NCBI GenBank assembly: GCA_017449075.1
Contig: JAFSKG010000039.1
Coordinates: forward strand, 1 to 50,296
Reading direction: 5' to 3'
Source: Lachnospiraceae bacterium
GTDB lineage: Bacteria; Bacillota; Clostridia; Lachnospirales; Lachnospiraceae
Length of the DNA stretch: 50,296 bases
The notes beneath the pieces were generated by a model. It saw only the letters and a program-made list of their open reading frames with translations, did no database searches and was not told where the DNA came from. This document shows, one piece after another, positions 1 through 23,115 of the stretch (within the stretch, counting starts at the first letter, position 1; each line of letters begins with the position of its first letter). The translations under genes and the position numbers were made by a program.

Positions 1-271
1 AGCAGCAGCACCAGCAGCAGCACCTGCAGCATCATCAGGACCAAAGCCAGCAGCAGGAGCAGGTTCAGTAGTTGCACCTCTTCAAGGTACAGTACAAACT
101 ATTAAGGTTAAGGTTGGTGATAGTGTAAATTCAGGTGATGTAGTTGCCGTTATCGAAGCTATGAAGATGGAAAATGATATTCCAGCAACTGCATCAGGAA
201 CAGTTAAGGCTGTGCACGTATCAGCAGGAGCAAAAGTAGCAGCAGGAGATGTATTACTTGACATTGGTTAA
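1..271 (+). CDS. Biotin carboxyl carrier subunit of a Na+-translocating decarboxylase (5' partial)
   Basis: The gene enters from the left edge, open from base 2, and ends in TAA at 269-271; about 89 residues are visible. The first 20 or so are an Ala/Pro linker, followed by a lipoyl/biotinyl domain with the biotinylation motif EAMKMEN, whose second-last Lys-containing MKM carries the biotin lysine. In this family the carrier shuttles CO2 from a carboxyltransferase subunit to the membrane beta subunit, which is encoded 36 bases downstream. The carboxyltransferase is not in the window, so the decarboxylated acid (malonate, methylmalonyl-CoA, oxaloacetate or glutaconyl-CoA) cannot be read directly. 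The downstream genes make malonate attractive, but that is inference. Confidence 0.95.
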
Positions 272-307
272 TAAGATTTTATTCATTTATTATAGAAGGA
301 GTTATAT

Positions 308-1504
308 ATGCAAGGACTTTTTTTAGCAAATGCCATAGTGGATACATTAGTTACCTTCTGGAAGGGTACGGGATTTTATGATTTCTTTAACCCTATATTT
401 AAAGAAGGTGTGCTTTTACCATTTGGCAATGTAATAATGATTATTATAGCTTGTATCTTGCTCTATCTTGCTATTGCAAAAGAATACGAGCCATATCTAC
501 TTATATCAATTGCATTTGGAATGCTTCTAGTAAATATTCCAATTGCAGGTCTTATGAATGGACCACTTGGGGATGTAAAGGGAGGGCTTCTTTACTATCT
601 TTTCCAAGGAATTGACTTAGGCATCTATCCCCCACTTATTTTCTTATGTATAGGTGCAGGTACGGACTTTGGACCGCTGATTGCTAATCCAAGATCATTA
701 CTTCTTGGTGCAGCAGCTCAGTTTGGTATTTTCTTTACATTTATTGGAGCTATATTCTTAGGTTTCACAGGACCAGAGGCAGCATCTATAGGTATAATTG
801 GTGGAGCAGATGGACCTACAGCACTTTACCTTACATCTAAACTTGCACCACAACTTTTAGGTTCTATAGCTGTAGCAGCTTATTCATATATGGCACTTGT
901 GCCAATGATTCAGCCACCAATTATTAAACTCTTAACCACAGAGAAGGAAAGAGTTATTAAAATGGAACAACTTAGAGAGGTTTCTCAAACTGAGAAGATT
1001 ATATTCCCTATAGTTGTTACTATATTCACTTGTTTATTACTTCCAGATGCTACATCACTTATTGGTATGCTTATGCTTGGAAATCTCTTGAAAGAGTCAG
1101 GAAGAGTTCCACTTCTTGTAAAAGCTATACAGGATGCTCTCATGTATATAGTTTCTATCTTCCTTGGAGTAACAGTAGGAGCTAAGGCATCAGCAGATCA
1201 CTTCCTTACACCTGATACTATAAAGATTATAGTTCTTGGTCTTATAGCATTCTCAATCGGTACTGCAGCAGGTGTTATCATAGGCAAGATTATGTGCTTC
1301 TTCACTAAAGGCAAGATAAACCCAATGATAGGTGCAGCAGGAGTTTCAGCAGTTCCTATGGCAGCAAGAGTTGTACAAAAAGAAGGTGTTAAATATAATC
1401 CAACAAACTTCTTACTCATGCACGCTATGGGACCAAACGTAGCAGGAGTTATCGGTTCGGCAGTTGCAGCAGGAATGTTACTCTTATTCTTCGGCACTAA
1501 GTAA
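308..1504 (+). CDS. Na+-translocating decarboxylase beta subunit (OadB/MmdB/GcdB/MadB family)
   Basis: This 398-residue polytopic membrane protein carries out decarboxylation of the carboxybiotin carrier coupled to Na+ export. It has many hydrophobic segments and the family hallmark GGADGPT at about residues 165-171; D168 corresponds to the membrane aspartate implicated in Na+ transport in OadB. Its C-terminal part has the conserved [16 protein letters not shown] block. The length fits shorter family members (roughly 370-430). ATG at 308 follows an AAGGAG site. It lies 36 bases after the biotin carrier and 26 bases before the amidase, so it appears to belong to the same transcript. The family is clear; which acid is used is not fixed by the beta subunit. 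Confidence 0.95.
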
Positions 1505-1530
1505 TAACGAGCCCGCATAGGAGGAAAACT

Positions 1531-3003
1531 ATGTACGATGTATTAGAACTAACAATTGAAAAGTTTCATAACGATTTAAAATCCGGCGCAACAACTTGCA
1601 AGGAAGTTATGCAGGCCTATATTGATAGAATAAATCTTTATGACAAACAAAATGATAAAATAAATGCAATAATTTTAATTAATCCAAATGCAATTAAAGA
1701 AGCAGAAGAATGCGATAAAAAAATTGCTGAAGATAAATCAATCATAGACAAGTTACCACTTTTCGGATGTCCACTTCTTGTGAAAGATAATTTTGAAACA
1801 TATGATATGCCTACAACTGCAGGTTCAAAAACTCTTGAAGGATTTGAAACTCACAAAGATGCTTTCGTAGTTGATAAACTAAGAAAGGCAGGAGCAGTAA
1901 TAGTTGCAAAAACTAATCTTCATGAGTTTGCAGTGTGGGGTGAAAATGTAAGTTCTATTTTAGGACAGACACATAATCCTTATGACCACAGTAGAAGTAG
2001 TGGAGGAAGTAGCGGCGGTACAGGTGCAGGACTTGCGGCAAACTTTGGACTTATCGGAATAGGAACTGATACAATAAACTCTGTGAGAAGTCCAAGTTCA
2101 GCAAATAGTCTCTGCGGTATAAGACCAACTATAGGACTTGTAAGCCGTATGGGAATAGTTCCTTATTCACTTACTCAAGATACTGCAGGAGCACTTGCAA
2201 GAACACTTACTGATGCAGTTAAGACATTCAACGAGATGATAGGTTCTGACCCTGAAGATGAAGTAACTATAGATGGGGCAAAAAATTCTAAAGGTGATTA
2301 CACTAAGTTTTTGAAAGCTGATGGACTTAAAGGAAAGAAACTTGGTATCCTTAGAAGTTTTATGGGAAATGAAGATGTCCACAAAGAAGTAAATAAGTGT
2401 ATGGAAAATTGCTTCAAAGTTTTGAAAGATAACGGAGCAGAGTTAGTAGACATTACTGAGAAGTTCGACATAGGACATCTAGTATCAGATATAAGTTTAC
2501 ATCTTTGGGATTTTAAATATGAGTTAGAAAAATATTTGAAAGAGCATAACTGTAAATATCAAACATTTGACCAACTTATATCTTGTGGACTTTGCACTCC
2601 AGATATAATTCCAAATCTTGAAGATGCAAATAAGATAGACATTAATTCACCTGCTTACAAAGAAAGAGTAGAGAAGAGATTACAACTTATAAAAGATGTG
2701 AAGGCACTTTTTGACAAATATGGTATAGATGCAATTATCTATCCACATCAACAACAACTTGTATGTAAGGTAGGCAAGACTCAGGCTCAAAGAAATGGTG
2801 CCATAGGTTCAGTCACAGGATTCCCTGCGATAGTTGTACCAGGAGGATTTTCAACACCAGATGAGTTTGCTCCTATCGGAGTACCAGTAGGAATGGAGAT
2901 CCTTGGCAAACCATTTACAGAGGGAACATTACTTGAGATAGCATATGGTTTCGAACAGCATTCACATTTTAGAAAAGTTCCAAAACTTGGCAATAAAAAT
3001 TAA
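1531..3003 (+). CDS. Amidase-signature family amidohydrolase
   Basis: A 490-residue cytoplasmic amidase-signature enzyme that hydrolyses a C-N amide bond. The Lys-cisSer-Ser triad can be read as K85 (VKDN), S160 (GGSSGG) and S184; the spacings of 75 and 24 residues equal those of K142/S217/S241 in fatty acid amide hydrolase. The nucleophile block reads TDTINSVRSP, where most relatives have TDTGGSIRxP or TDTGNSIRxP. ATG at 1531 follows an AGGAGG site. Family members include malonamidase E2, allophanate hydrolase and GatA. No gatC or gatB lies nearby, which argues against a tRNA amidotransferase. Sitting between a decarboxylase subunit and an AllF-like protein, it could release ammonia from malonamate or a similar monoamide; this is inference. 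Confidence 0.9.
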   Translation: MYDVLELTIEKFHNDLKSGATTCKEVMQAYIDRINLYDKQNDKINAIILINPNAIKEAEECDKKIAEDKSIIDKLPLFGCPLLVKDNFETYDMPTTAGSKTLEGFETHKDAFVVDKLRKAGAVIVAKTNLHEFAVWGENVSSILGQTHNPYDHSRSSGGSSGGTGAGLAANFGLIGIGTDTINSVRSPSSANSLCGIRPTIGLVSRMGIVPYSLTQDTAGALARTLTDAVKTFNEMIGSDPEDEVTIDGAKNSKGDYTKFLKADGLKGKKLGILRSFMGNEDVHKEVNKCMENCFKVLKDNGAELVDITEKFDIGHLVSDISLHLWDFKYELEKYLKEHNCKYQTFDQLISCGLCTPDIIPNLEDANKIDINSPAYKERVEKRLQLIKDVKALFDKYGIDAIIYPHQQQLVCKVGKTQAQRNGAIGSVTGFPAIVVPGGFSTPDEFAPIGVPVGMEILGKPFTEGTLLEIAYGFEQHSHFRKVPKLGNKN

Positions 3004-3029
3004 TTATAAAATAAATATAGGAGGGAAAT

Positions 3030-4592
3030 ATGGTAAAAGCACAAATCACACCTGGTGCATACTATGATTCAGTTTCACTTATGATTATTTCTAATGCTGT
3101 CAAGAAAATTCCTGGTGTCACTGAAGCACTTGTGGGCATGGGCACAGACTTAAATCGTGAGCTAAATAGGAATAATCCTAATCTTAATTCACCTGAAGTA
3201 GAAAAAACTACTCCAAATGACTTCTTTGTAGCTGCAAATGTAAATGATGAAGAGACATGGAAAAATGTACTTGCAAAAGTAGAAGAGAAGTTGAATGAAA
3301 AGAAAGAAGATGCAGCTTCGAACTACTATCCAGCAACACTTGATGGTGCACTTAAAGTTCAACCACATACCAATATGGCAGTTATTTCTGTTCCTGGTAA
3401 AGGTGGACATGCATATAATGTTGCAAAAGAGTGCCTAATGCACCATATCAACGTTATGCTTTTTTCTGATAATGTGTCAATCGATGAGGAAAAAGAACTT
3501 AAGACTGAAGCAGTCAAGAGAGGTCTACTAGTTATGGGACCAGATTGTGGCACTGCTATAGTCAACCATGTTCCACTTGCTTTTGCAAATGTAGTTCGTC
3601 CAGGCAATATCGGTATGGTATGTGCATCTGGAACAGGAACTCAAGAGGTATCTTCTATAATTGACTCACTTGGTGGTGGTGTATCACAAGTTCTTGGTAC
3701 AGGTGGAAGAGACCTTAAAAAAGAAATTGGCGGTATAATGTTTAAGCATTGCTTACAAGCTCTCATTGCTGATGATGCTACTAAAGTAATAGTTCTTGTA
3801 TCAAAGCCACCATATCCACCAGTTCAAACTGAAGTATTAAAGATGGCAAAAGAAGGCGGAAAGCCTACAGTTGTCTGCTTTATAGGTGGTAATCCAGAAG
3901 AACCAACGAGCTTTGGTTTAGTTCCTGCAGTTTCGCTTGAGGATGCAGCAAGAAAGGCAGTTGCACTTTCAAAGGGCGAGACTCCAAAGACATTTGATGG
4001 CTTTGATATGAGTCTTGCTGAGGTTGACACATTGGTAAATGAAGCTGTTAAGAGTTTAAAGCCAACTCAAAAGTATATGAGAGCACTCTACACAGGTGGT
4101 ACGCTTTGTGATGAGTCTATGAAGTATTTACTTCCAACTTGCAAGAGAATATTCTCAAATATTCCTCTTCAAGATAATGATAAGTTAGAAAATAAAGATG
4201 TAAGTAGAGAGCATACAGCACTTGACTTTGGAGATGATGAATTTACAGTAGGACGTCCTCATCCAATGATTGATCCAAGCCTTCGTGCAGAGAGAGTTCT
4301 TAAAGAAGCAAATGATGAAACTTGTGCTGTTATCTTAGTTGATTGTGTAATCGGTTATGGTTCTCATGAAGATCCAGCAGCAGATTTGTCAGAATCAATT
4401 AAGAAGGGTAAAGAGGCTGCAAAAGCAGCAGGCCGTGACGTAATTGTTGTAGCAAGTGTTTGCGGAACTGAGGGTGACCCACAGGGACTTACAAAGACTC
4501 GTGAGACACTTAAAGCGGCAGGGGCAATCGTTATGCCTACAAATGCACAAGCTTGCAGATTAGTAAGAAAAATAATAGAGAAGATAGGATAA
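3030..4592 (+). CDS. FdrA/AllF-like acyl-CoA-synthetase-fold protein
   Basis: This 520-residue protein resembles FdrA (AllF) of E. coli, built on the succinyl-CoA synthetase alpha fold. It has a glycine-rich nucleotide-binding region near residue 195 (MVCASGTGTQEV), a following GTGGRDLK segment and a C-terminal RPHPMIDPSLR motif. In E. coli, FdrA with YlbE and YlbF (AllFGH) has been linked to oxamate carbamoyltransferase, which splits oxalurate with phosphate into oxamate and carbamoyl phosphate. Here it is followed by a small FdrA-domain protein and a DUF1116 protein, the AllG equivalent, but no DUF2877 (AllH) gene. A carbamoyl-phosphate-forming role on an N-carbamoyl amide is plausible; the substrate is not shown by the sequence. 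ATG at 3030 follows an AGGAGG site. Confidence 0.88.
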   Translation: MVKAQITPGAYYDSVSLMIISNAVKKIPGVTEALVGMGTDLNRELNRNNPNLNSPEVEKTTPNDFFVAANVNDEETWKNVLAKVEEKLNEKKEDAASNYYPATLDGALKVQPHTNMAVISVPGKGGHAYNVAKECLMHHINVMLFSDNVSIDEEKELKTEAVKRGLLVMGPDCGTAIVNHVPLAFANVVRPGNIGMVCASGTGTQEVSSIIDSLGGGVSQVLGTGGRDLKKEIGGIMFKHCLQALIADDATKVIVLVSKPPYPPVQTEVLKMAKEGGKPTVVCFIGGNPEEPTSFGLVPAVSLEDAARKAVALSKGETPKTFDGFDMSLAEVDTLVNEAVKSLKPTQKYMRALYTGGTLCDESMKYLLPTCKRIFSNIPLQDNDKLENKDVSREHTALDFGDDEFTVGRPHPMIDPSLRAERVLKEANDETCAVILVDCVIGYGSHEDPAADLSESIKKGKEAAKAAGRDVIVVASVCGTEGDPQGLTKTRETLKAAGAIVMPTNAQACRLVRKIIEKIG

Positions 4593-4602
4593 GGAGGAAT
4601 AT

Positions 4603-4776
4603 ATGGAAAACAGAGTAAATGTATTATTTACAAAGAAGATTCAAATCGTAAACTTTGGTATCAAAAGTTTTTATGATGACAATAAGAAACAAGGTATTCC
4701 TTCTGTGCATGTAGATTGGAAGCCTGTAGCAGGCGGTAATAAAGAACTTGCAAGTATTCTTGATGATTTATTGTAA
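4603..4776 (+). CDS. Small FdrA-domain protein, 57 residues
   Basis: ATG at 4603 follows a strong AAGGAGG site directly after the FdrA stop, and the frame closes with TAA at 4774-4776. The predicted protein has a motif run (IQIVNFGIKSFYDD, then VHVDWKPVAGG) that, from memory, resembles a segment fused to the larger partner proteins in other FdrA/DUF1116 systems. It is soluble, without a signal peptide or membrane segment. The position between the two large partners, with a 10-base gap before and 33 bases after, suggests a split-off subunit or linker domain of the same complex. No catalytic residue can be assigned. I am confident that it is translated, and less confident in the domain name. 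Confidence 0.8.
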   Translation: MENRVNVLFTKKIQIVNFGIKSFYDDNKKQGIPSVHVDWKPVAGGNKELASILDDLL

Positions 4777-4809
4777 AAAATATTAAATTAAAATAAAGGA
4801 GAGAAAATT

Positions 4810-6084
4810 ATGGCTATTACAAAGGATGAAATTAACCAAGCGAATGCGGAAGTGTTAAAGATTATTCTTAGTGCTAAACCAACTCTTATTGGTATGGGAA
4901 CTGCTGGAGAAGATATTCCAGGCATGACTCCTACTACGATTTTACACTCAGGACCTCCTGTAGATTGGGAGCATATGAGTGGACCACAAAAGGGTGCTGT
5001 TATTGGTGCTCTTATGTATGAAGGTCTTGCAAAAGATGATAAGGAAGCTGAGCAACTTGCTGCTTCTGGAAAGATCACATTTGATCCTTGCCACCATCAC
5101 TGTGCAGTAGGACCTATGGCTGGTATAGTATCTTATCATATGCCAGTATTTATCGTTGAGAATAAGGAGTATGGCAACAAAGCATACTGTACTTTCAATG
5201 AAGGTCTTGGAAAAGTTTTGAGATTTGGTGCTTATCAACCAGAAGTTATTGAAAGACTGAAATGGTTACAAGATGAGCTTTATCCAATCGTGAAAGAAGC
5301 TCTTGCAATTTGTGGCGAGATAGATTTGAAGGCAATGATTTCAGAAGTTCTTCAAATGGGTGATGATGGTCACAACAGAAATAAAGCAGGCACATCTTTA
5401 TTATTCAGAAAGCTTGCACCAGCTATTGTTCAAACTCATTTCACTGAGGAGCAAAAAGTAAAAGCTCTTAAGTTCATCGATAGCAATGACCACTTCTTCC
5501 TTAACTTAACTATGCCAGCTGCTAAGTGCACAATGGATGCTACATTCTGTGATGTAAATCCAAAGACTAAGGGATCTACAATTGTAGCAACTATGGCTCG
5601 TAATGGTTATGAATTTGGTATAAGAATAGCAGGACTTGGACAAAAGAAATGGTTCACAGCTCCAGCAGAGATCGTTGAAGGATTATATTTCCCAGGATTC
5701 ACAGCAGAAGATGCAAATCCAGACGTTGGCGATTCTTGTATCACTGAGACTTGCGGTATTGGTGGATTCTGTATGGGTGCTGCTCCAGCAATCGTTCAAT
5801 TCGTTGGTGGAACTCCAGAAGATGCTCTTAATTATAGTAGACAAATGTATGAAATCACAGAAGGCGAAGGAACTACATATAAGATTCCTGCACTCAACTT
5901 CCGTGGATCAGCTACAGGTATTGATATTAGAAAAGTTATCAAGACTCAAATCAGACCTGTTATCAACACTGGTGTTGCTGCTAAGAAGCCAGGTGTTGGA
6001 CAAGTTGGTGCTGGTATAGTTCACCCACCAATGAAGTGCTTCGAAGATGCACTCAAAGATTTCCAAGCAACTTACATGTCATAA
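4810..6084 (+). CDS. DUF1116 protein (YlbE/AllG-like)
   Basis: A 424-residue protein of the DUF1116 family, the partner of FdrA. Features seen are GMGTAGEDIPGM near residue 30, a histidine cluster DPCHHHCAVGPMAGIVS at about residues 95-110, and CMGAAPAIVQFVGG near residue 325. In E. coli the relative YlbE (AllG) works with AllF and AllH in making carbamoyl phosphate from oxalurate. The conserved histidine cluster may be part of a metal or phosphate site; that is inference. ATG at 4810 follows an AAAGGAGAG site. The gene is in the run amidase-FdrA-small protein-DUF1116-cyclase, consistent with one pathway. A palindromic repeat lies just after its stop. Confidence 0.9.
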   Translation: MAITKDEINQANAEVLKIILSAKPTLIGMGTAGEDIPGMTPTTILHSGPPVDWEHMSGPQKGAVIGALMYEGLAKDDKEAEQLAASGKITFDPCHHHCAVGPMAGIVSYHMPVFIVENKEYGNKAYCTFNEGLGKVLRFGAYQPEVIERLKWLQDELYPIVKEALAICGEIDLKAMISEVLQMGDDGHNRNKAGTSLLFRKLAPAIVQTHFTEEQKVKALKFIDSNDHFFLNLTMPAAKCTMDATFCDVNPKTKGSTIVATMARNGYEFGIRIAGLGQKKWFTAPAEIVEGLYFPGFTAEDANPDVGDSCITETCGIGGFCMGAAPAIVQFVGGTPEDALNYSRQMYEITEGEGTTYKIPALNFRGSATGIDIRKVIKTQIRPVINTGVAAKKPGVGQVGAGIVHPPMKCFEDALKDFQATYMS

Positions 6085-6087
6085 ACT

Positions 6088-6111
6088 TGTATGGGCGAGT
6101 TATACGAGCCC
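6088..6111 (+). repeat. Short dispersed palindromic repeat, copy A
   Basis: Directly after the DUF1116 stop, the sequence TGTATGGGCGAG..CGAGCCC forms an imperfect hairpin with a GGGC/GCCC outer stem. The same pattern recurs near 27490 and 41308. It lies between two genes of the same apparent operon, so it may act as an mRNA-processing or stability element. Confidence 0.6.
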
Positions 6112-6148
6112 TAAAAAATTAAAATAATTTAAATAGGAGGATATACTT

Positions 6149-6955
6149 ATGAAATGGGATCAAATTAAAATGTATGATTTAACAATCGGTACAGGTGTTA
6201 CAACACCACCTTGGCCAACATATCAACCACTTAGAGTTGAGTATTTTAAGAGACTTTCTTCAAATGGTGCTAATGGACAAATTATCCACACTAGTAACCA
6301 CGTAGGAACTCACCTTGATGGACCAAGACACTTTGATACATCAGGCGGAGACATCGCAGGACTTCCACTTGATAAACTTTGCCATCCAGGCGTAGTTGTA
6401 GATCTTTCTGATGAGTTCGGTGCTGAGGACTGGTCAATCTACAGCGAGAAAGATATCGAGAAGAGAGTAGAAGTAAAAGAAGGAGATATCCTTATCATTA
6501 ATACTGGATATCACAAATATGGGTGGGAAGAGCCAGCTGCTGATGAGCAAAGATACATGGTTCGTCACCCAGGTCCATCACTTTCTTTCGTTGACTGGTG
6601 TCATCAAAAGAAACTTCGTTGGATCGGTGTTGACTGTGGTTCTGCAGATCACCCAATGAATACAAAGATTCGTGATTGGTGTCCAATGGATGCTAAGAAG
6701 TGCGACGAGTATATGAAGAAAAAATATGGAAAGTCTTTAAATGAGATGTATCCATGGCCAGAGCAATATCAAGCAATGCATATTCAAATGTTCCCTAAGA
6801 AATATGGTGAGATAATACATGCTGAGTGTGTAGGCGGAGAGATTGATAAACTTTCTAACAAGAGAGTAGTTATTGGTTGCTTCCCTTGGAAGGGTGTTGA
6901 CATTGAGTCTGCATTCACTCGTATAGTTGCATTTGATGGATTTGAAGGCGTATAA
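6149..6955 (+). CDS. Cyclase-family metal-dependent hydrolase (PF04199-like)
   Basis: A 268-residue protein with the cyclase-family metal motif HxGTHxDxPxH, seen as H51-V-G-T-H55-L-D57-G-P-R-H61. The family includes bacterial kynurenine formamidase and isatin hydrolase, Mn2+ or Zn2+ enzymes that hydrolyse cyclic or N-formyl amides. No signal peptide is present, so it should act in the cytoplasm. ATG at 6149 follows an AGGAGG site. Between the DUF1116 gene and the molybdenum hydroxylase genes, a ring-opening step on an oxidised heterocycle fits best, for example barbiturate to ureidomalonate. The classical barbiturase belongs to a different fold (the AtzD/cyanuric acid hydrolase family), so this would be a non-orthologous replacement. 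The substrate is inference. Confidence 0.9.
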   Translation: MKWDQIKMYDLTIGTGVTTPPWPTYQPLRVEYFKRLSSNGANGQIIHTSNHVGTHLDGPRHFDTSGGDIAGLPLDKLCHPGVVVDLSDEFGAEDWSIYSEKDIEKRVEVKEGDILIINTGYHKYGWEEPAADEQRYMVRHPGPSLSFVDWCHQKKLRWIGVDCGSADHPMNTKIRDWCPMDAKKCDEYMKKKYGKSLNEMYPWPEQYQAMHIQMFPKKYGEIIHAECVGGEIDKLSNKRVVIGCFPWKGVDIESAFTRIVAFDGFEGV

Positions 6956-6964
6956 TATTTTTTT

Positions 6965-6995
6965 AAGCAAGTCACTTTAATGTGGCTTGCTTTTT
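6965..6995 (+). terminator. Intrinsic terminator or attenuator after the cyclase gene
   Basis: An 11-base-pair stem (AAGCAAGTCAC with GTGGCTTGCTT, one G-T pair) around a 6-base loop is followed by a T run. Only 50 bases separate it from the next start codon and I see no clear promoter in between, so partial read-through into the molybdenum hydroxylase genes is likely. Confidence 0.8.
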
Positions 6996-7045
6996 AAGTT
7001 AATCAAACGATATTTTTATAAAAAAATAACGAAAGGAGAGATTGG

Positions 7046-7876
7046 ATGAGAGAATTTGAATATGTTGCACCTAAGACAGTGAAAGAAGCGCTTAGCCTTC
7101 TTGCTACTTATAAAGAAAAAGCAACTATTCTTGCTGGTGGAACTGATGTGGTTGTTCGTCTTCGTGATGAGATTATAGACCCTGAGTTTATAATTGACAT
7201 CAAGCATATCGACGAATTAAATGGCATTAAGTTCGACAAGAAAGAAGGACTTTTTGTAGGTGCAAATGCGACTATGCATGAAATTCAAAACGACAAGAAC
7301 GTTAAAGAATTTTATCCATTTTACGCTGAGGCTTGCGGACATGTAGGCTCAAAGCAAGTCAGAAACAAAGCAACTTCTGTCGGAAATCTTTGTACTGCAT
7401 CACCACTTGGTGATAGCCTTACTCCTATGTATTGTCTTGATGCAACAGTTGTAATTGAAGGACCAAAGGGAAAGAGAGAAGTCCCAGTTCGTGAATTTAT
7501 AACTTTTGTAAGAAAGACTGTTCTTGAAAGAGACGAGTTGGTACTTGGTGTTAAGTTCCCATATGTAGAGTGTAAAGGAATTTATACAAAGAATGCTAGA
7601 CGTCATGAGGTTGATCTTTCAAATATTGTAGCAACAATACTTAAGATTGGTGACGAGTATAGAATTGCCTATGGTTCTGTAGCTCCAACGCCTATAAGAT
7701 TAGTTAAGACTGAAGAATTCTTGAAGGGCAAGAAAATTGATGACAAGGTTATAGAAGAGGCTAAGAAGATTTTAGCAACTGAGATATCACCTATATCAGA
7801 TCTTCGTGCTACTAAAGAATATAGAGTTTCGGTTTCACAAAGTATTTTAGAAAATAGCCTAAAGGCATTAGGTTAG
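7046..7876 (+). CDS. Molybdenum hydroxylase FAD-binding subunit (xanthine dehydrogenase family)
   Basis: This 276-residue subunit is the FAD domain of a three-subunit xanthine-dehydrogenase-type hydroxylase. Visible family features are ILAGGTDVVVRLRD at about residues 28-41, the FAD pyrophosphate loop, and SKQVRNKATSVGNLCTASPLGDS near residue 100. It passes electrons from the Fe-S subunit to the final acceptor. ATG at 7046 follows an AAAGGAGAG site. Genes for the Fe-S and molybdenum subunits follow with 12- and 2-base gaps. Relatives act on purines, pyrimidines, nicotinate or CO; the FAD subunit does not discriminate. The adjacent uracil-type permease favours a nucleobase. Confidence 0.94.
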   Translation: MREFEYVAPKTVKEALSLLATYKEKATILAGGTDVVVRLRDEIIDPEFIIDIKHIDELNGIKFDKKEGLFVGANATMHEIQNDKNVKEFYPFYAEACGHVGSKQVRNKATSVGNLCTASPLGDSLTPMYCLDATVVIEGPKGKREVPVREFITFVRKTVLERDELVLGVKFPYVECKGIYTKNARRHEVDLSNIVATILKIGDEYRIAYGSVAPTPIRLVKTEEFLKGKKIDDKVIEEAKKILATEISPISDLRATKEYRVSVSQSILENSLKALG

Positions 7877-7888
7877 AAAGGAGGGAAT

Positions 7889-8365
7889 ATGAAAAAGATA
7901 AATGTAAAGTTTACTCTTAATGGTGAACCAATTGAACTTGAGGTTCAACCAAATCATACAGCCCTTCGTGTAATTCGTGAGCAACTTGATTTAACTGGTG
8001 CAAAAGAGGGCTGTGGAGCAGGAGAGTGTGGTGCATGCACTATCATAGTTGATGGTCTTGCTGTAAACTCATGTCTTATGCTTGCTCCAGAACTTGATGG
8101 AAAAAATGTATTGACTGTTGAAGGACTTGCCAAAGATGGCAAGCTTACAGACATTCAACAGGCATTCATAGATCACGTAGCACTTCAATGTGGATATTGT
8201 ACTCCAGGATTCATTATGTCTACCACTGCATTCCTTGAGGAGAATAAAAAACCTACTCGTGAAGAGATAGAGATTGCTCTTTCTGGGAATCTATGTAGAT
8301 GTACTGGATACAAGAGAATTATTGAAGCAGTTGAAGATGTAGTAAATAAGAGGGGAGGTAAATAA
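7889..8365 (+). CDS. Molybdenum hydroxylase [2Fe-2S] subunit
   Basis: A 158-residue protein with the two [2Fe-2S] domains of the xanthine dehydrogenase family. The N-terminal plant-type cluster motif is GCGAGECGACTIIVDG, with a further Cys in VNSC, and the C-terminal helical-domain cluster has CGYCTPGF and NLCRCTGY. It relays electrons from the molybdenum site to FAD. The length is typical (150-165). ATG at 7889 follows an AAAGGAGGG site 12 bases after the FAD subunit stop, and the gene runs almost directly into the molybdenum subunit. No residue appears to be missing. Confidence 0.96.
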   Translation: MKKINVKFTLNGEPIELEVQPNHTALRVIREQLDLTGAKEGCGAGECGACTIIVDGLAVNSCLMLAPELDGKNVLTVEGLAKDGKLTDIQQAFIDHVALQCGYCTPGFIMSTTAFLEENKKPTREEIEIALSGNLCRCTGYKRIIEAVEDVVNKRGGK

Positions 8366-8367
8366 GT

Positions 8368-10719
8368 ATGACAATAGATGGTCAATATACAGCGATAGGT
8401 AAGTACCTTCCAAGAGTTGATGGTGTGGCAAAAGTTACAGGTGCAGCAAAGTATGCGGCAGATATCAATATGCCAAGAATGCTCTACTGCGACGTAGTAA
8501 GAAGTCCATATCCACATGCAAAGATTTTAAAAATTGATACCAGTGCTGCTGAGAAACTTCCAGGTGTAAAAAATGTTATAACTGGAGATTACTATGCAAA
8601 GCGTGGAGGACTTTATCTTGCAGATAAAAATTTCCTCGCTCATAAGACAGCAAAGTATAGAGGAGAAGCTGTCGTAGCAGTTTGCGCTGAAACTCCTGAG
8701 ATAGCACATGAAGCTTGCAAACTTGTAAAGATAGATTATGAAGAGTTACCTGCAGTTTTAAGTCCGATGGATGCTATAAAGCCAGATGCTCCACTTGTTC
8801 ACCCAGAACTTGAGACTTATCGTGTAGCTCCTATCTTCCACCCAGTTCCAGGTACAAATATTTCTCATAAGCACTTCTTAAAGAAGGGTGACACTGAAGC
8901 AGCATTTAAGAAATGTGATAAGATAGTTGAGCACGAGTACTATGTACCTCATGTTCAACACTGCCCTATAGAGACACACACTGCAACTGTTAAGTTTGAC
9001 CAAAGTGGAAATCTTACAGTTTGGGCATCTTGCCAATCACCTTATGCAGTTAGAAATGCTCTTTCTGACTCATTTGATATTCCACTTCATAAGATCCATA
9101 TTATATCTGAGTTCGTTGGTGGTGGATTTGGTGCTAAGGCAGGTACTACTATAGAAGGAATTATAATTCCTCTTGCTCAACTCAATGTTGGTCGTCCAGT
9201 AAAATTCACATATACTCGTGAAGAAGAATTCCGTGATGCATATGTTCGTCAAGGAATGCTTGCTAAGATTAAAACTGGTGTGGATAAGACTGGAAAGATT
9301 TTAGCAGTTGAGAATAATTTCTACTGGGATGGTGGTGCTTACAATGAGTATGGTGTAAATATTGCAAAGGCAGCAGGATTTGCAAGTGCTGGTCCATACA
9401 ATATTGACAACATTACAACTAATTCTTATTGTTTATATACTAATCATCCAGTTGGTGGTCCATACAGAGGATTTGGTATGTGTGAAATTCACTTCTGTAT
9501 AGAGCAAAACTTAGATGTAGTTGCAAATGAGATTGGTATATCACCAATCGAGATAAGAAGAATCAATGGTCTTCGCCCAGGCGACAAGACTGGTATGGGC
9601 GAAGTTATGAAAGTTTCAGGATATCAACCATGTCTTGAGACTGTTCTTGATAAATTAAAATATGATCCAACTCCAAAGAAAGTTTCTGAACACAAGATTA
9701 GATGTATGGGTGTAGCAGCAGGATGGAAATCACCTTCACAACCTACTGATGCAGGTTCAGCTTCTATCATTAGGATGAATGAAGATGGTACATTCTATGT
9801 TCACACTAGTGCAGAAGAAATTGGTCAAGGATCAAACACTGCTCTAACTCAGATAGCAGCAGAAGTATTAAATGTAAATCCAAATAGAATTACTCTTAAA
9901 TCAGGTGACACTAATATGAACCCATATGAGTGGCAAACTGTTGCAAGCCGTACAACTTATTGTGCAGGTAATGCAGTTAAACTTGCTGCAGAGGATTTGA
10001 GAAAGAAAATTTTTGATCTTGCTCAGATGAAGTTTGGTTATCCTGCAAGAGATATGTATCTTGAAAGAGATGATGAGCATGATTGTACTTGGGTAGTAGC
10101 AAGTAAATATCATAGAGATATGAGAGTAGATATCAAGACATTTGCTCTTGGTATGCCTCTTAATGATGGTTCAGGTATCGGTGGTCCTGCTATTGGTGTA
10201 GGTACATTTACTTTACCAAATAACATGGCCTATAATGCCGCAGATAGCCAATCTGAAAAAGGTGTTGCTTTCTGGACTATAGGATGTACTGGTGTTGAGA
10301 TTGAAATTGACACTCAGACAGGTCACGTAAAAGTTCTTCAAATGATTTCTTGCTTTGACCCTGGTAAAGTTATAAATACAGAACTCTATGCTGCTCAAGT
10401 TGAAGGAGCTATGATTCAATCACTTGGTACAGCACTTTATGAGGCAATGATATTAAAAGATGGAAAACTTATGAATGGATCATTCCTTGATTACAAGATT
10501 CCAACTGCGTATGAGATGCCAGATGTACTTGAATCATATGTAGTAGAGTTCCCAGAAGAGACAGGTCCATTTGGTGCCCGTGGTATTGGTGAGCCTGCGA
10601 TGGTTCCAGGTGCTCCAGCAATAGCAAATGCAATAGCAAATGCTCTTGGCGTGAGATTTAACCAGATGCCAATCACACCAGATATGGTTCTTGAAGCTAT
10701 AAATAACAAGAAAAATTAA
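8368..10719 (+). CDS. Molybdenum hydroxylase catalytic subunit (xanthine dehydrogenase family)
   Basis: A 783-residue catalytic subunit binding the molybdopterin cofactor. Motifs in order are GGGFGAK near residue 250, GGPYRGFGMCE near 370, AEEIGQGSNTALTQ near 485, and the C-terminal GARGIGEP block (residues 736-743), whose Glu (742) matches the active-site base of xanthine dehydrogenase. The length is usual for the separate large subunit. It hydroxylates a heteroaromatic carbon using water as oxygen source. Purine, uracil/thymine and nicotinate hydroxylases all belong here and I cannot read substrate residues by eye. Next to a UraA-type permease and pyrimidine-compatible hydrolases, uracil to barbiturate is a good candidate; xanthine is the alternative. 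No signal for the Tat pathway is seen. Confidence 0.94.
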   Translation: MTIDGQYTAIGKYLPRVDGVAKVTGAAKYAADINMPRMLYCDVVRSPYPHAKILKIDTSAAEKLPGVKNVITGDYYAKRGGLYLADKNFLAHKTAKYRGEAVVAVCAETPEIAHEACKLVKIDYEELPAVLSPMDAIKPDAPLVHPELETYRVAPIFHPVPGTNISHKHFLKKGDTEAAFKKCDKIVEHEYYVPHVQHCPIETHTATVKFDQSGNLTVWASCQSPYAVRNALSDSFDIPLHKIHIISEFVGGGFGAKAGTTIEGIIIPLAQLNVGRPVKFTYTREEEFRDAYVRQGMLAKIKTGVDKTGKILAVENNFYWDGGAYNEYGVNIAKAAGFASAGPYNIDNITTNSYCLYTNHPVGGPYRGFGMCEIHFCIEQNLDVVANEIGISPIEIRRINGLRPGDKTGMGEVMKVSGYQPCLETVLDKLKYDPTPKKVSEHKIRCMGVAAGWKSPSQPTDAGSASIIRMNEDGTFYVHTSAEEIGQGSNTALTQIAAEVLNVNPNRITLKSGDTNMNPYEWQTVASRTTYCAGNAVKLAAEDLRKKIFDLAQMKFGYPARDMYLERDDEHDCTWVVASKYHRDMRVDIKTFALGMPLNDGSGIGGPAIGVGTFTLPNNMAYNAADSQSEKGVAFWTIGCTGVEIEIDTQTGHVKVLQMISCFDPGKVINTELYAAQVEGAMIQSLGTALYEAMILKDGKLMNGSFLDYKIPTAYEMPDVLESYVVEFPEETGPFGARGIGEPAMVPGAPAIANAIANALGVRFNQMPITPDMVLEAINNKKN

Positions 10720-10795
10720 TATTTTTATACTTTTTTAGCATAAAAATTTGTTAAAAAAATCTTACAAAATTATTTATTTTCTTGTGGATTTATAG

Positions 10796-10801
10796 TATAA
10801 T
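10796..10801 (+). promoter_or_regulatory. Possible -10 element upstream of the uracil permease
   Basis: A perfect TATAAT lies 92 bases before the permease start, but the -35 region at normal spacing (TTTATT near 10773) is poor. The leader of about 85 bases has a small hairpin (AGCG..CGCT) near 10860 just before the AGGAGG site. I see neither a purine riboswitch nor a PyrR site in it. Confidence 0.35.
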
Positions 10802-10893
10802 ATACACATAATATAGTGGTAGAGATGAAAAGATAATTCTATCATTAAAAAAAATTTAGAGCGGTCGTCGCTTAAAAACGAGGAGGAAATTAT

Positions 10894-12165
10894 ATGGCAG
10901 CAACTCAAACAGGCATTTATGATGCTAGGAAGCAGTTAGGATGGCCACAAGCAATTATACTTGGTATTCAACACGTATTCGCAATGTTTGGCGCAACTGT
11001 TTTAGTTCCACTTCTTACTGGACTTTCAGTTTCTGTTACACTATTTTGTGCAGGTATTGCAACACTTTGGTTCCACTTTATAACTAAAGGTAAAGTACCT
11101 GTATTCCTTGGATCTTCATTCGCATTCCTTGGAGCATTTGCTTCGATTGCACCAAATGGTGATCCAGCACTTCTTCCATTTGCTACAGGTGGTATTCTTT
11201 GTGCAGGTCTCGTATATGTTATCCTTGCAGCACTCATCTATGCACTTGGTGCAAAGAGAGTTATGACTTTATTCCCACCAGTAGTTACAGGACCAATTAT
11301 CATATTAATAGGTCTTATACTTGCACCATCAGCACTTAATAACTGTATCAATGGCTCAATCGCTTCAGGACAACCAAGATGGATAATTTCAATTCTTGCT
11401 ATTTTAGTAATTATTATTTGTAACATCTTTGGTAAAGGAATGGTTAAGATACTACCTATCCTTATCGGTATTATAGTATCTTATGTTGTTGCATTTGCTC
11501 TTGGATGGACAAAACCATTTGCATCTGATGGAGTTATAGCATTACCTCCTTTCCACTTCCCAAAATTTGAAGCTGGTGCAATCGTTACTTGTATCGTTGT
11601 TGCTCTTGCGGCAATCATAGAGCACGTTGGTGACATAGCAGCTATCGGCGCAACTTGTGGAAAGAACTTTATCAAGGATCCAGGACTTACAAGAACTCTC
11701 CTTGGTGATGGTATTGGAACATCTCTTGCAGGATTACTCGGTGGACCAGCTAACACTACTTATTCAGAGAATACTGGTGTTGTAGCTCTTACAGGCGTTT
11801 ATGATCCATTTGTATTAAGAATCGCTGCAGTAGTTGCAATTATTCTTTCAGTAATTCGTCCAGTTGATGGATTTATAAACACTATTCCAGATGAAGTTAT
11901 CGGTGGTATTTCATTCATCCTTTATGGTATGATTTCAGCTATCGGTCTTAGAACTCTTGTTGAGCATAAAGTTGATTTTGCAAATCAAAGAAACGTTATC
12001 ATAGCAGCTCTTATCATGGTATCTGGTCTTGCATTCAACTCAAGCCCATTCCAACTTAATCTTGGTTCTATCACATTAAGTTTTGGTGGTCTTGCATGTG
12101 CAGCTGTTATCGGTATCGTACTCAATGCTGTACTTCCTGGAAAAGACTATACTTTTGAAGACTAA
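10894..12165 (+). CDS. Uracil permease-like NCS2 transporter (UraA/PyrP type)
   Basis: This 423-residue polytopic membrane protein belongs to the NCS2 nucleobase permeases. The substrate motif NTTYSENTG at residues 287-295 is of the uracil type (UraA and PyrP have NTTYGENIG), whereas xanthine and urate permeases have a Gln-Asn motif there. E243 in IIEHVGD and E292 match the uracil-contacting Glu241 and Glu290 of UraA; the UraA His245 position is Asp here. GSSFAF near residue 73 is also UraA-like. ATG at 10894 follows a strong AGGAGG site. It lies 174 bases after the molybdenum hydroxylase and is followed by its own terminator, so it could be a separate unit of the same pathway. It should import uracil or a close pyrimidine. 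Confidence 0.92.
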   Translation: MAATQTGIYDARKQLGWPQAIILGIQHVFAMFGATVLVPLLTGLSVSVTLFCAGIATLWFHFITKGKVPVFLGSSFAFLGAFASIAPNGDPALLPFATGGILCAGLVYVILAALIYALGAKRVMTLFPPVVTGPIIILIGLILAPSALNNCINGSIASGQPRWIISILAILVIIICNIFGKGMVKILPILIGIIVSYVVAFALGWTKPFASDGVIALPPFHFPKFEAGAIVTCIVVALAAIIEHVGDIAAIGATCGKNFIKDPGLTRTLLGDGIGTSLAGLLGGPANTTYSENTGVVALTGVYDPFVLRIAAVVAIILSVIRPVDGFINTIPDEVIGGISFILYGMISAIGLRTLVEHKVDFANQRNVIIAALIMVSGLAFNSSPFQLNLGSITLSFGGLACAAVIGIVLNAVLPGKDYTFED

Positions 12166-13445: not shown

Positions 13446-13748
13446 ATGACAATTAATAAAAACGAATCTGCAGATAGTATCACTATATCATTATCTGGAA
13501 GACTTGATAAACTTTCATCACCAGAGCTTGATAAATCGATGAAAGAAGAAATTCAAAAAAAGAAAAATATAATTTTTGACATGAAAGACCTGACATATAT
13601 TTCATCAGCAGGTCTTAGAGTATTGCTTGCTACAGAAAAAGAGAATAAGGCTAATGGTAAAAATACGACTATTATTAATGTAAATTCAGATGTAATGGAT
13701 ATTTTTGTTGTCACAGGATTTGTATACATGCTTGATATTCAAAAATAA
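13446..13748 (+). CDS. STAS-domain anti-sigma factor antagonist (SpoIIAA/RsbV type)
   Basis: A 100-residue single STAS domain. The phosphorylation loop reads DLTYISSAGLRVLLAT at about residues 50-65, with the target Ser in ISSAGLR as in SpoIIAA and RsbV. In partner switching this protein binds the kinase/anti-sigma ATPase when unphosphorylated and is reset by a PP2C phosphatase. ATG at 13446 follows a GAGGAGAG site. Its stop overlaps the start of the next gene (TAATG), which encodes both a phosphatase and an RsbW-like ATPase domain, so the pair forms a complete regulatory module. No sigma factor gene is in the window. Confidence 0.93.
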   Translation: MTINKNESADSITISLSGRLDKLSSPELDKSMKEEIQKKKNIIFDMKDLTYISSAGLRVLLATEKENKANGKNTTIINVNSDVMDIFVVTGFVYMLDIQK

Positions 13749-16321
13749 TGAAGAGAAATATACGCAAATTTAGTAGCAAAATTTTTGTAGCAATCATAGC
13801 ACTGATTGTTTTGGTCGTGTGTGCTGTGATTGCTATTTTTTATTATAGTTTATTTAATGTAAGAGGTGAGATAGGGACTTTGTTTGACAGTATGAGAGAT
13901 GACATCAATCAAACTGCCTCTACGACAATAAATAAATATAATGACGAGATGATGGAATACATATTAGATGGACAGGCAAATGCTATTGAGTTTGTAATGG
14001 CGGAACACAATGAAGACTTAAACTATTTAGTTCATCTTATAGAGCAGGCATATAAAAGGAATATAAGAGCCACACATCTAGTGAGTGAACCAAAACCTGA
14101 AAATGAGGGAAAGCTTAGTGTCCAATTAATGCATGAAGAGGGAGTTGATCTAAATAGTAGTGAAGTCAAATACGATATAGAAATTTTGTCTACGTTACAA
14201 AATGAATTAATATATAATGTGCAAGATTCTATAGACAAATTGCGCTGCTACATAGAGACGGAGAGTGGACTTCTTATAATGGCAGACAAGATTACAAAAG
14301 ATAAATTTGAAAAAGATGGAAGCGTCAAATATGCTACTTTTAGAAATGAAGATTGGTATATAGAAGTTGTTGACCCCAAAAAGATGTATGTTTCAAATGT
14401 ATCAATTGATGATTTGACAGGAAAACAAATTATAGTTTTATATAAACCATATTTTGATGAGCGGGGCAAAAAGAAAGGGATAGTGTGCTTTGAATTTGAT
14501 GTAGAAAGTATTTCCGGAAATAGTTGGGCAGTTAAAGACACAAATATATATGATATATTTGTAGTAGATGGGGACAACAACATAGTGTTTGATACAAGTA
14601 AACTTGTATATCCTAATGATGAAAAGACTAGAACAAGATCAAAGAATTTCCTAGATAAGGCACGAGCAAATGGTACTGGGATTGAAAGCTACAAATTTAA
14701 AGGTGTAGAGTATAAGTCATATTATACGAAACTTAGTTTTTCTGACTGGATGATATTTGTCGCACTTAATTACAATACTTTAAAAGAGAGCATAAGTAAT
14801 CTAGAAAATATATTAGATAATACAAATAGAAAAGTTTATGAAGAGATTGATAGTGATAACAGAGATTTTGCAAAGGCAATTTTAATTTTTTCATTTATTT
14901 TGTTAATCTCTGCATTTTTCTTTGCTAAATTATTGGCAAATATGCTATCTGTTCCATTAAATAAGTTCACAAATGACATAAGCAAAATGGATGCAAGCGA
15001 TTTGAAACCAGTACCCGTGGTGGATAGTTCGGAAGAACTATATACGTTATCTACCACATACAACAGTATGATTGCTAAGATGAAAACCTATGTAGATAAT
15101 ATTGAAAAAATAACCGAAGAAAAAGAAAGCATAAATGCTGAACTTAAAGTTGCGAAACGAATACAGCAGGATATGTTACCAAATGACTTTAAAGATTTGT
15201 ACAATAGAAAAGACATAGATATCTATGGCATGAATATCCCGGAAGTAGAAATTGGAGGAGATTTTTACAATTATATACTTGTAGGCAATAAACTCATATT
15301 GATTATCGCTGATGTTTCTGGAAGTGGTATACCTGCAAGCCTTTTTATGGCAAAGACAAATGCCCTTTTGAATAGTGCCATTTCGTGGACTACAAGCCCA
15401 AGGACTATGCTGTCATATGTGAATCATGAATTATATAAAAGCAATACTGAGTATTATTTTGTGACTATAGCGATTTATACGATTGATTTAAAAACTAGAC
15501 ATGTAATTTCAGTCAACGCAGGGCATGAAGACTCTATAATCATTAGAAAAAATGGTGAAGTTGCTAAGCTTAAAGAAAAGAGAACATCTCCTATAGGGGT
15601 GTCTGACGATTTAAGATTTGAGGAAAATGAATTTGATTTAAACGAAGGAGACACATTGTTTTTATTTACTGATGGGGTTATTGAAGCAGTAAATAAAAAT
15701 GAAGAATTGTTTGGAGAAAGTAGACTGCTTGACATAATTAAAGTTAATCGTGATAAAACTATTAAAGAACTTACTTCAAACATAAAAAATGAAATAGATA
15801 AATTTTCTGCAGGATTAGAACAATATGATGATATTACTATGCTAGCGCTAAGAGTTATTGATAGAAATGAAACATACAATGAAAGTTTAGTTTACAATTT
15901 TGAAGAAACTTTTGTAGGTAGCTATGATATTATTGATAGAATTGATAGCTTTTTGAGCCAAAAATTGGCAGTAGCCTATGAAGGAAATGTTGATAAATTC
16001 AAACCATATATTAATAAATTTGAAGTATGTATAGAGGAAATTGTAGTAAATATTTTAGATTATGGGTATAAAAAAGATGAAGAGAAATGGATTAAAATGC
16101 ATGTAACTATAGATAGAAATGATGATAAGGTTACCATTTCGTGCATTGATGGGGGAAAGGAATTTGACCCAACTTCTGTAGATGAGCCAAATATACTAAA
16201 GGATGCTCGTGACAGAAAACTTGGTGGTCTTGGAATTTTTATAACTCGTAAATTTATGGATTTAATGAATTATGAGTATATAGACGGTAAGAATGTATTG
16301 ACTTTAGTTAAATATTTGTAA
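13748..16321 (+). CDS. Membrane SpoIIE-type phosphatase with HAMP and RsbW-like ATPase domains
   Basis: An 857-residue sensor protein. In order: a membrane segment at about 12-34; an extracellular sensor region to about 370 that looks like a Cache domain; a second membrane segment at about 377-400; a HAMP linker; a short coiled coil; a SpoIIE/PP2C domain from about 480 (IQQDMLP, GGDFYNY, DVSGSG, TDGV, DDITMLALR); and a C-terminal HATPase_c2 domain with an N box (EEIVVNILDYGY) and glycine boxes (DGGKEFDP, GGLGIFITR). The phosphatase would dephosphorylate the STAS protein upstream; the ATPase domain could phosphorylate it or bind a target. It overlaps the STAS gene by one base, and the NRPS starts 12 bases later, so it probably controls that operon or its product. 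Confidence 0.94.
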   Translation: MKRNIRKFSSKIFVAIIALIVLVVCAVIAIFYYSLFNVRGEIGTLFDSMRDDINQTASTTINKYNDEMMEYILDGQANAIEFVMAEHNEDLNYLVHLIEQAYKRNIRATHLVSEPKPENEGKLSVQLMHEEGVDLNSSEVKYDIEILSTLQNELIYNVQDSIDKLRCYIETESGLLIMADKITKDKFEKDGSVKYATFRNEDWYIEVVDPKKMYVSNVSIDDLTGKQIIVLYKPYFDERGKKKGIVCFEFDVESISGNSWAVKDTNIYDIFVVDGDNNIVFDTSKLVYPNDEKTRTRSKNFLDKARANGTGIESYKFKGVEYKSYYTKLSFSDWMIFVALNYNTLKESISNLENILDNTNRKVYEEIDSDNRDFAKAILIFSFILLISAFFFAKLLANMLSVPLNKFTNDISKMDASDLKPVPVVDSSEELYTLSTTYNSMIAKMKTYVDNIEKITEEKESINAELKVAKRIQQDMLPNDFKDLYNRKDIDIYGMNIPEVEIGGDFYNYILVGNKLILIIADVSGSGIPASLFMAKTNALLNSAISWTTSPRTMLSYVNHELYKSNTEYYFVTIAIYTIDLKTRHVISVNAGHEDSIIIRKNGEVAKLKEKRTSPIGVSDDLRFEENEFDLNEGDTLFLFTDGVIEAVNKNEELFGESRLLDIIKVNRDKTIKELTSNIKNEIDKFSAGLEQYDDITMLALRVIDRNETYNESLVYNFEETFVGSYDIIDRIDSFLSQKLAVAYEGNVDKFKPYINKFEVCIEEIVVNILDYGYKKDEEKWIKMHVTIDRNDDKVTISCIDGGKEFDPTSVDEPNILKDARDRKLGGLGIFITRKFMDLMNYEYIDGKNVLTLVKYL

Positions 16322-23101: not shown

Positions 23102-23115
23102 GTAATAATTATAAT

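Follow-up and report, generated by a model that had tools for sequence, protein, structure and literature searches.

The genes at the start of a 50,296-nucleotide stretch of DNA from a Lachnospiraceae bacterium (contig JAFSKG010000039.1; hereafter the window, G000:C32:1-50296) form an operon that, judged from its sequence, would allow uracil, and perhaps thymine, to be broken down oxidatively under anaerobic conditions. We put the probability of this reading at about 0.6, all substrates and reactions being predicted. An NCS2 permease would import uracil, a molybdenum hydroxylase would oxidize it to barbiturate with release of two electrons, and a metallohydrolase of the cyclase family would open the ring to ureidomalonate. 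AllF, a 57-residue protein corresponding to the AllF C terminus (AllF-C) and AllG would then cleave ureidomalonate with phosphate to malonamate and carbamoyl phosphate, and an amidase would convert malonamate to malonate and NH3. A CoA-transferase of the MdcA family would form malonyl-CoA at the cost of acetyl-CoA, and a biotin-dependent Na+ pump, composed of MmdA, OadG, the biotin carrier protein BCCP and OadB, would decarboxylate malonyl-CoA to acetyl-CoA and CO2. By balance, the net reaction would be uracil + 4 H2O -> acetate + 2 NH3 + 2 CO2 + 2[H]. Energy would be saved twice, as one ATP via carbamate kinase and in the form of exported Na+. Gene content, gene order, protein families, conservation, co-occurrence and a substrate-site residue of the permease are read directly from the DNA. 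The original prediction, made from the window alone, is partly supported: its main line appears to hold and is strengthened by genes upstream of the window, and its malonate end had to be corrected.

Each of the ten genes named in that prediction is an open frame, read from the + strand within positions 2-12165, and matches the family given for it in Pfam or NCBIfam (Table 1); the gene for the 57-residue protein had been overlooked. The contig begins inside the first gene, and the assembly from which the window derives (GCA_017449075.1; 1.64 Mb, 49 contigs) is 76% complete. Four other genomes of the same genus (L009-L012) keep the same order, so the order is not a matter of chance. There, a divergent LysR gene is followed by MdcA, an MmdA-like protein, OadG, BCCP, OadB, amidase, FdrA (AllF), the 57-residue protein, AllG, cyclase, the molybdenum hydroxylase subunits and the permease. 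In the assembly of the window the first genes of the operon sit on another contig, C13 (8083 bases, L186), whose end falls in the Ala/Pro-rich linker of BCCP, the point at which the window begins. No exact overlap was found between the two contig ends, and the junction is deduced from the gene order of the relatives.

Table 1 Features of the operon on the window (C32) and on contig C13.
Feature	Contig	Position	Strand	Family or score
LysR	C13	2913-3794	-	
MdcA (malonate transferase family)	C13	4238-5878	+	TIGR01110 799 bits, equivalog cut-off 789.15
MmdA-like carboxyltransferase	C13	5894-7438	+	TIGR01117 890.1 bits, below cut-off 998.8
OadG	C13	7454-7831	+	TIGR01195 43.5 bits, cut-off 36.05
Biotin carrier protein, C-terminal 89 residues, AMKM biotin site	C32	2-271	+	Pfam Biotin_lipoyl
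OadB/MmdB-type membrane subunit of predicted Na+-translocating decarboxylase	C32	308-1504	+	OAD_beta; TIGR01109 498.8 bits, cut-off 190.6
Amidase-signature hydrolase, proposed malonamate -> malonate + NH3	C32	1531-3003	+	PF01425
AllF/FdrA, large part of transcarbamylase	C32	3030-4592	+	CoA_binding/Ligase_CoA; NCBIfam PRK06091 474.5 bits, cut-off 433
57-residue protein, AllF C-terminal domain as own gene	C32	4603-4776	+	41% identical to E. coli AllF 509-554, E 4e-12
AllG (DUF1116), transcarbamylase subunit	C32	4810-6084	+	PF06545 319.2 bits, cut-off 27
Cyclase-family metal hydrolase, proposed barbiturate ring opener	C32	6149-6955	+	Cyclase PF04199
FAD subunit of molybdenum hydroxylase	C32	7046-7876	+	FAD_binding_5, CO_deh_flav_C
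Iron-sulfur subunit of molybdenum hydroxylase	C32	7889-8365	+	Fer2, Fer2_2
Molybdopterin subunit, proposed uracil -> barbiturate	C32	8368-10719	+	MoCoBD_1/2; motifs WQTVAS[RK], YGVN
NCS2 permease, uracil type	C32	10894-12165	+	Xan_ur_permease; nearest solved chain E. coli UraA

The upstream genes bear directly on the end of the route. Carboxyltransferase genes had been named as something to look for upstream of the window, and an MdcA-family protein and an MmdA-like carboxyltransferase are indeed found there, both in the relatives and on C13. MdcA exceeds the equivalog cut-off in the two copies scored (806.7 and 799 bits). The nearest solved chains of MmdA are propionyl- and methylmalonyl-CoA enzymes, and that of OadB is 6iva, an OAD beta subunit. 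A malonate acyl carrier protein (ACP; PF06857) was not found in any of five genomes (the control matched in E. coli) and methylmalonyl-CoA mutase in none of ten (8 of 14 controls matched), which makes malonyl-CoA the likeliest substrate of the decarboxylase. The simplest reading is that malonate and acetyl-CoA would give malonyl-CoA and acetate, followed by decarboxylation coupled to Na+ export. The ACP-dependent MadB route was dropped as unsupported, since OadB stays far below the cut-off of the malonate-type model TIGR03136 (175.2 versus 596.9 bits) and the ACP was not found in the five genomes. Of the malonate end first proposed, the biotin-dependent Na+ pump remains likely, and it would be an Mmd-like pump with MdcA instead of MadB/MadF with an ACP. 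Like the MAD system of Malonomonas rubra, the predicted enzyme would combine a transferase of the MdcA/MadA family with a membrane decarboxylase linked to biotin; it differs in that no malonate ACP was found, the carboxyltransferase is a single protein of the Mmd type and the beta subunit is of the OadB type. With the methylmalonyl-CoA decarboxylase (Mmd) of propionigenic anaerobes it shares alpha, delta, gamma and beta subunits, whereas here no mutase was found in the ten genomes, MmdA falls short of its model and MdcA is added. Two further genomes show related gene sets. In G057 (L192) a LysR-MdcA-MmdA-OadG-BCCP-OadB block lies beside a PF00939 symporter with no uracil genes nearby, and is apparently a stand-alone malonate-use module of the MdcA-Mmd hybrid type. 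G030 (L193) has an apparent ACP-type MAD set, as read from its gene order.

The predicted transcarbamylase resembles AllFGH of E. coli, whose AllF and AllG families act on oxalurate according to excerpts of PMC11326118. Shared are the AllF and AllG families, the expectation of an acyl-urea substrate and a carbamate kinase in the genome; here, however, AllF is split, the genomes of the genus that carry the operon gave no AllH match, and a cyclase and a molybdenum hydroxylase take the place of the allantoin genes as partners. The nearest solved chain of AllF is 3dmy, FdrA. That AllF is divided between two genes follows from the match of the 57-residue protein to the C terminus of E. coli AllF; its gene is preceded by GGAGG, and in L013 and L029 the same domain is fused to the front of AllG. 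Separate or fused, and with E values up to 0.01, it was matched in 70 of 80 loci selected by the cyclase and in 61 of 65 selected by AllG (both samples are described below). An RNA element in the 217-bp gap between FdrA and AllG was considered and dropped: neither the window nor L009 gave an Rfam match at the gathering score, and the gap holds the 57-residue gene. The comparison with AllFGH in the original prediction was thus right for the AllF and AllG families and failed for AllH. In excerpts of PMC11326118, E. coli with allFG and without allH formed 2.9 +/- 3.3 mM oxamate (7%), compared to 38.3 mM in the wild type. An enzyme made of split AllF and AllG without AllH would, on the basis of its predicted subunits, truly differ from E. 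coli AllFGH. The amidase is placed after the transcarbamylase on chemical grounds, by analogy with oxalurate. Carbamate kinase, sought anywhere in the genome, was found above cut-off in six of seven genomes tested, including the source of the window, where it is unlinked to the operon.

In a phylogenetic tree, the AllG of the window falls into a group of 23 sequences, all of them cyclase-linked, with a support of 97/78 in a tree of 79 rows whose bootstrap had not settled. Its first neighbour is L025 of the same genus, followed by L087 and L050; E. coli AllG stands elsewhere on a long branch. Presence of the cyclase changes seven times along the tree, compared to a mean of 25.4 after shuffling of the labels. 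The tree is based on sequences of 330-560 residues. Of the 65 AllG-selected stretches, 58 are represented in it, three of them by two rows, and 16 loci picked by hand from the 80 of the cyclase sample were added. In L165, L166, L135, L137, L138 and L147, AllF/AllG are found without a cyclase match and with carbamate kinase and/or a permease of the Gln type described below. These are candidates for further AllF/AllG clades acting on other ureido substrates.

The association of the cyclase with the other genes was examined in two samples. The first was drawn from 398 genomes of the phylum, 60 of which have AllG, and consists of 65 stretches fetched around the listed AllG matches; 33 have a cyclase nearby and 32, called negative, have no match to the window cyclase. 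Fourteen features were compared, with uncorrected p values and related genomes that are not independent. An amidase or nitrilase is found in 16 of 33 positive and 0 of 32 negative loci (p 2.7e-6; the nitrilase is present in every one of the 16, joined in three by the amidase) and the molybdenum subunit in 23 versus 3 (p 6.4e-7). OadB (6 versus 0, p 0.024), CaiB/MdcA (9 versus 2, p 0.044), the permease (17 versus 7, p 0.02) and carbamate kinase (20 versus 11, p 0.048) are also commoner with the cyclase, whereas AllC/HyuA-type ureide genes occur in none of the positive and five of the negative loci (p 0.024). Not significant were FdrA (33/33 versus 28/32, p 0.053), p220, a protein described below (7 versus 1, p 0.054), thiolase (5 versus 1, p 0.20), PucR (26 versus 21, p 0.28) and AllH (8 versus 9, p 0.78).

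The second sample comes from 534 stretches with a cyclase relative, found by scanning a single genome for each species; the best 80 were kept, many of them on short contigs. In both samples, genes were labelled through single-query tblastn searches (E 1e-8), so divergent genes escape labelling, and the AllH counts are lower bounds. AllG was labelled in 75 of the 80 loci, FdrA in 69, AllH in at least 48, the permease in 48, the molybdenum subunit in 47 and PucR in 42. Further genes are a CaiB-type CoA-transferase (37), amidase (17), carbamate kinase (15), thiolase (15), p220 (13), nitrilase (11) and MdcA, MmdA and OadB (8 each). Amidase or nitrilase is present in 28 loci, CaiB or MdcA in 45, and both kinds in 24. 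MmdA or OadB occurs in 11 loci, all with an amidase/nitrilase or a CoA-transferase. Outside the genus, the core is joined with MmdA and/or OadB in L077, L087, L092, L112, L121, L141 and L142: L077 holds nitrilase, CaiB, MmdA and OadB, and in L087 and L092 (Anaerotruncus) the order is CaiB-amidase-MmdA-PucR-AllH-FdrA-AllG-cyclase. Isolates that carry the core include Maledivibacter halophilus M1 and Alkaliphilus peptidifermentans DSM 18978, each having a molybdenum subunit in the locus, and Schaedlerella arabinosiphila DSM 106076, in whose locus none was seen. The core of the gene set recurs, and the modules downstream vary. Because different families fill the same roles, we infer that malonamate, malonate and malonyl-CoA are shared intermediates. 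A separate observation concerns seven loci from Schaedlerella, Flavonifractor and others (L029, L032, L041, L043, L049, L052, L053), which have the cyclase and most or part of the core, and in which no molybdenum subunit was seen. They contain a nitroreductase-family gene, varied permease types and amidohydrolases resembling cytosine deaminase or 8-oxoguanine deaminase, and likely start from a different substrate.

A further module is p220, a protein of about 220 residues (L039:3770-4441; also L031, L033, L035, L037, L042, L051, L055, L059, L066, L141 and L142). It gave no Pfam match, and a sequence search against solved structures was without result; a structure model with a predicted local distance difference test score (pLDDT) of 80.3 has, as read by eye, the order of strands and helices of GNAT acyltransferases. 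p220 adjoins the core, together with thiolase and DUF35, at loci that miss the amidase and the CoA-transferase, and in L141 and L142 it is found with MmdA-BCCP-OadB. Among loci with p220 and/or thiolase, the amidase, nitrilase and CoA-transferase kinds sought occur in 0 of 15, the number of such loci among the 80, and in 0 of 7. It is tempting to speculate that p220 would convert malonamate and CoA directly to malonyl-CoA and so stand in for both amidase and CoA-transferase. In the wider pathway family, a pyrimidine would be oxidized, its ring opened by a cyclase-family enzyme, the acyl-urea phosphorolysed for ATP and the malonyl unit passed to varying end modules. We give even odds to this broader idea of a widespread new anaerobic pyrimidine pathway with interchangeable end modules, p220 among them.

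Pyrimidine as substrate is suggested first of all by the permease. As predicted, it is of the UraA type: its nearest solved chain is UraA, although it does not reach the cut-off of the UraA equivalog PRK10720 (326.5 versus 477 bits). At UraA position 290, which we take to distinguish pyrimidine from purine carriers, the window permease has Glu, as have UraA and RutG, whereas E. coli XanQ and UacT have Gln. Among the 73 permease rows kept (370-560 residues), Glu is found in 45 of 45 from loci with both cyclase and molybdenum subunit, a count that is biased since the permeases are related and were sought with two UraA-like queries. Loci with the cyclase and without the molybdenum subunit have Glu in 11, Gln in 6 and Ala in 5 of 22 permeases, and loci without cyclase Gln in 5 and Glu in 1 of 6. 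Over the sites F73, E241, H245, Y288, G289 and E290 of UraA, whose roles in substrate binding we assume, the window has F, E, D, Y, S and E, so that four of six match. The molybdenum subunit matches 13 NCBIfam models, in each case with a score under the cut-off; the best is XdhA (NF043082) with 524.2 bits against a cut-off of 780, and an identity as xanthine dehydrogenase was rejected. Among 55 rows of 700-880 residues, one per locus, the motif WQTVAS[RK] is found in 43 of 52 cyclase-linked subunits and in none of three others; E. coli XdhA has PGAFASR there. MoaA is present in nine of ten genomes.

The cyclase shares with isatin hydrolase and kynurenine formamidase, its nearest solved relatives, the family PF04199 and the metal motif HxGTHxDxP, but no solved chain scores above 33 bits with it. 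Isatin hydrolase opens a cyclic amide. H51, H55, D57 and H61 are invariant in 27 of 27 aligned sequences. A barbiturase of the AtzD/Bar family (PF09663) was found in none of seven genomes, but control genomes were silent as well.

Several observations weigh against this reading. Neither the molybdenum enzyme nor the cyclase carries a sequence feature that proves a pyrimidine substrate; the structure model of the cyclase has a pLDDT of 72.9 overall and of under 50 at residues 46-61, the active site. The permease has Asp at UraA position 245, as XanQ, where UraA and RutG have His, and the 45 Glu residues counted at position 290 are subject to the bias mentioned. The nearest solved chain of the amidase is the peptide amidase 1m21 (223.5 bits), the match to malonamidase E2 being weaker (68 bits). 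AllH (PF11392) was found in none of the five genomes of the genus with the operon, which are 76-98% complete; the control matched in E. coli. Carbamate kinase was not found in G011; in the source genome of the window it lies beside recA and recX and about 2 kb from ornithine carbamoyltransferase, neighbours identified by eye, so it may serve arginine metabolism. MmdA is below the cut-off of the methylmalonyl-CoA decarboxylase model TIGR01117. Of the 12 genomes of the genus, 10 have an OadB-type subunit, among them five of the seven that lack the operon; the pump is therefore not confined to the route. MmdA or OadB is not significantly tied to the cyclase among the AllG loci (6/33 versus 2/32, p 0.26), four of the 11 cyclase loci with MmdA or OadB are from the same genus, and four others of the 11 (L049, L050, L052 and L053) match at only 32-34%; these decarboxylase matches may belong to the other malonate type. 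In the two samples, 16 of the 80 and 8 of the 33 loci with a cyclase showed none of the downstream modules sought, and cytosine deaminase is no commoner with the cyclase (3/33) than without (3/32, p 1.0).

Could the operon serve purines instead? The molybdenum enzyme would then be a xanthine dehydrogenase, the cyclase would open parabanate or a similar ring, and AllF/AllG would act on oxalurate, with oxamate or oxalate as the end product. XdhA as best-scoring model, the activity of the E. coli proteins on oxalurate, the XanQ-like Asp of the permease and a CaiB-type transferase in L098 that is 42% identical to the oxalate CoA-transferase YfdE of E. coli are in line with this. We nevertheless consider it unlikely: the XdhA score is below its cut-off, the permease has the pyrimidine-type Glu, ureide genes of the AllC/HyuA type keep away from the cyclase, MdcA belongs to a malonate family and the AllG of the window groups with cyclase-linked sequences, apart from that of E. 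coli. An oxalate end was rejected, as oxalyl-CoA decarboxylase was unmatched in the 80 and 65 loci (145 altogether) at E 1e-10.

A rather improbable variant retains the route and changes the pyrimidine, which could be thymine, leading to methylmalonyl-CoA and propionate, cytosine after deamination, or barbiturate itself. The solved relatives of MmdA would fit thymine, L098 has a cytosine deaminase above cut-off, and 33 loci of the 80 in the cyclase sample, part of them on short contigs, showed no molybdenum subunit. MdcA without a mutase, however, points to malonate, the permease is nearest to UraA, and cytosine deaminase shows no tie to the cyclase.

Quite improbable, in our view, is that two unrelated units are joined here, a housekeeping biotin-dependent Na+ decarboxylase with its permease and a ureide segment inserted by chance. 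The wide occurrence of OadB in the genus would agree with it, and so would G006 and G009, which retain only MmdA-OadG-BCCP-OadB-permease, with the middle genes missing; G003 retains OadG-BCCP-OadB, and G002 and G008 BCCP-OadB. The MmdA of G006 is 86% and that of G009 57% identical to that of the window; in the MmdA tree, where the branching order inside the genus is poorly supported, the latter forms a long branch, which could reflect decay after loss. Either the middle genes were lost in G006 and G009 or these genomes represent a stage before their gain; both fit. The original prediction had named a complete methylmalonyl-CoA or oxaloacetate decarboxylase conserved without the other genes as refuting it; this is partly seen, for the beta subunit, but not for MdcA, which is present in all five operon carriers and in none of the seven other genomes of the genus, several of which are incomplete (G006 only 55%). 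Moreover, the core is paired with MmdA and/or OadB in the seven loci outside the genus listed above.

Very improbable, finally, is the classic oxidative chemistry, in which the amidase would be a ureidomalonase forming malonate and urea, and AllF/AllG would serve another ureido compound: an amidase is present in the operon, and barbiturase and ureidomalonase do yield malonate and urea in the known route (PMC3758960, in excerpts), but with AllG in 75 and a window-type amidase in 17 of the 80 cyclase loci, and a nitrilase instead in 11 others, the transcarbamylase accompanies the cyclase more regularly than the amidase does.

The uracil route proposed here would share with the oxidative pyrimidine pathway, which is called rare in excerpts of PMC3758960, the plan uracil, barbiturate, ureidomalonate, malonate. 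It would differ in a PF04199 cyclase in place of barbiturase, in the formation of carbamoyl phosphate, not urea, and in a decarboxylation coupled to a Na+ pump; the novelty would thus be a known chemical plan carried out by different predicted enzymes with conservation of energy. In the text of PMC12507026, which deals with a reductive urate pathway, 'barbitur' and 'malon' are absent. The open-licence PMC literature, as far as covered, contained no description of the full gene set. To our knowledge, the oxidative pyrimidine route is known only from aerobes.

Elsewhere in the window, at 13446-16321, a STAS protein and an 857-residue fusion of dCache, SpoIIE phosphatase and HATPase domains are probably a partner-switching signalling pair. 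At 16334-23742 follow a nonribosomal peptide synthetase of 2255 residues (two adenylation, two carrier and one condensation domain and a terminal reductase-type domain) and a phosphopantetheinyl transferase; the synthetase resembles, we believe, gut enzymes that produce dipeptide aldehydes.

If the proposed route is correct, anaerobes of rumen, gut and sediment could gain energy by fermenting uracil released in RNA turnover. The route would also give functions to a clade of cyclases, a clade of molybdenum hydroxylases, AllF/AllG proteins that do not form oxamate and the MdcA-Mmd hybrid pump.

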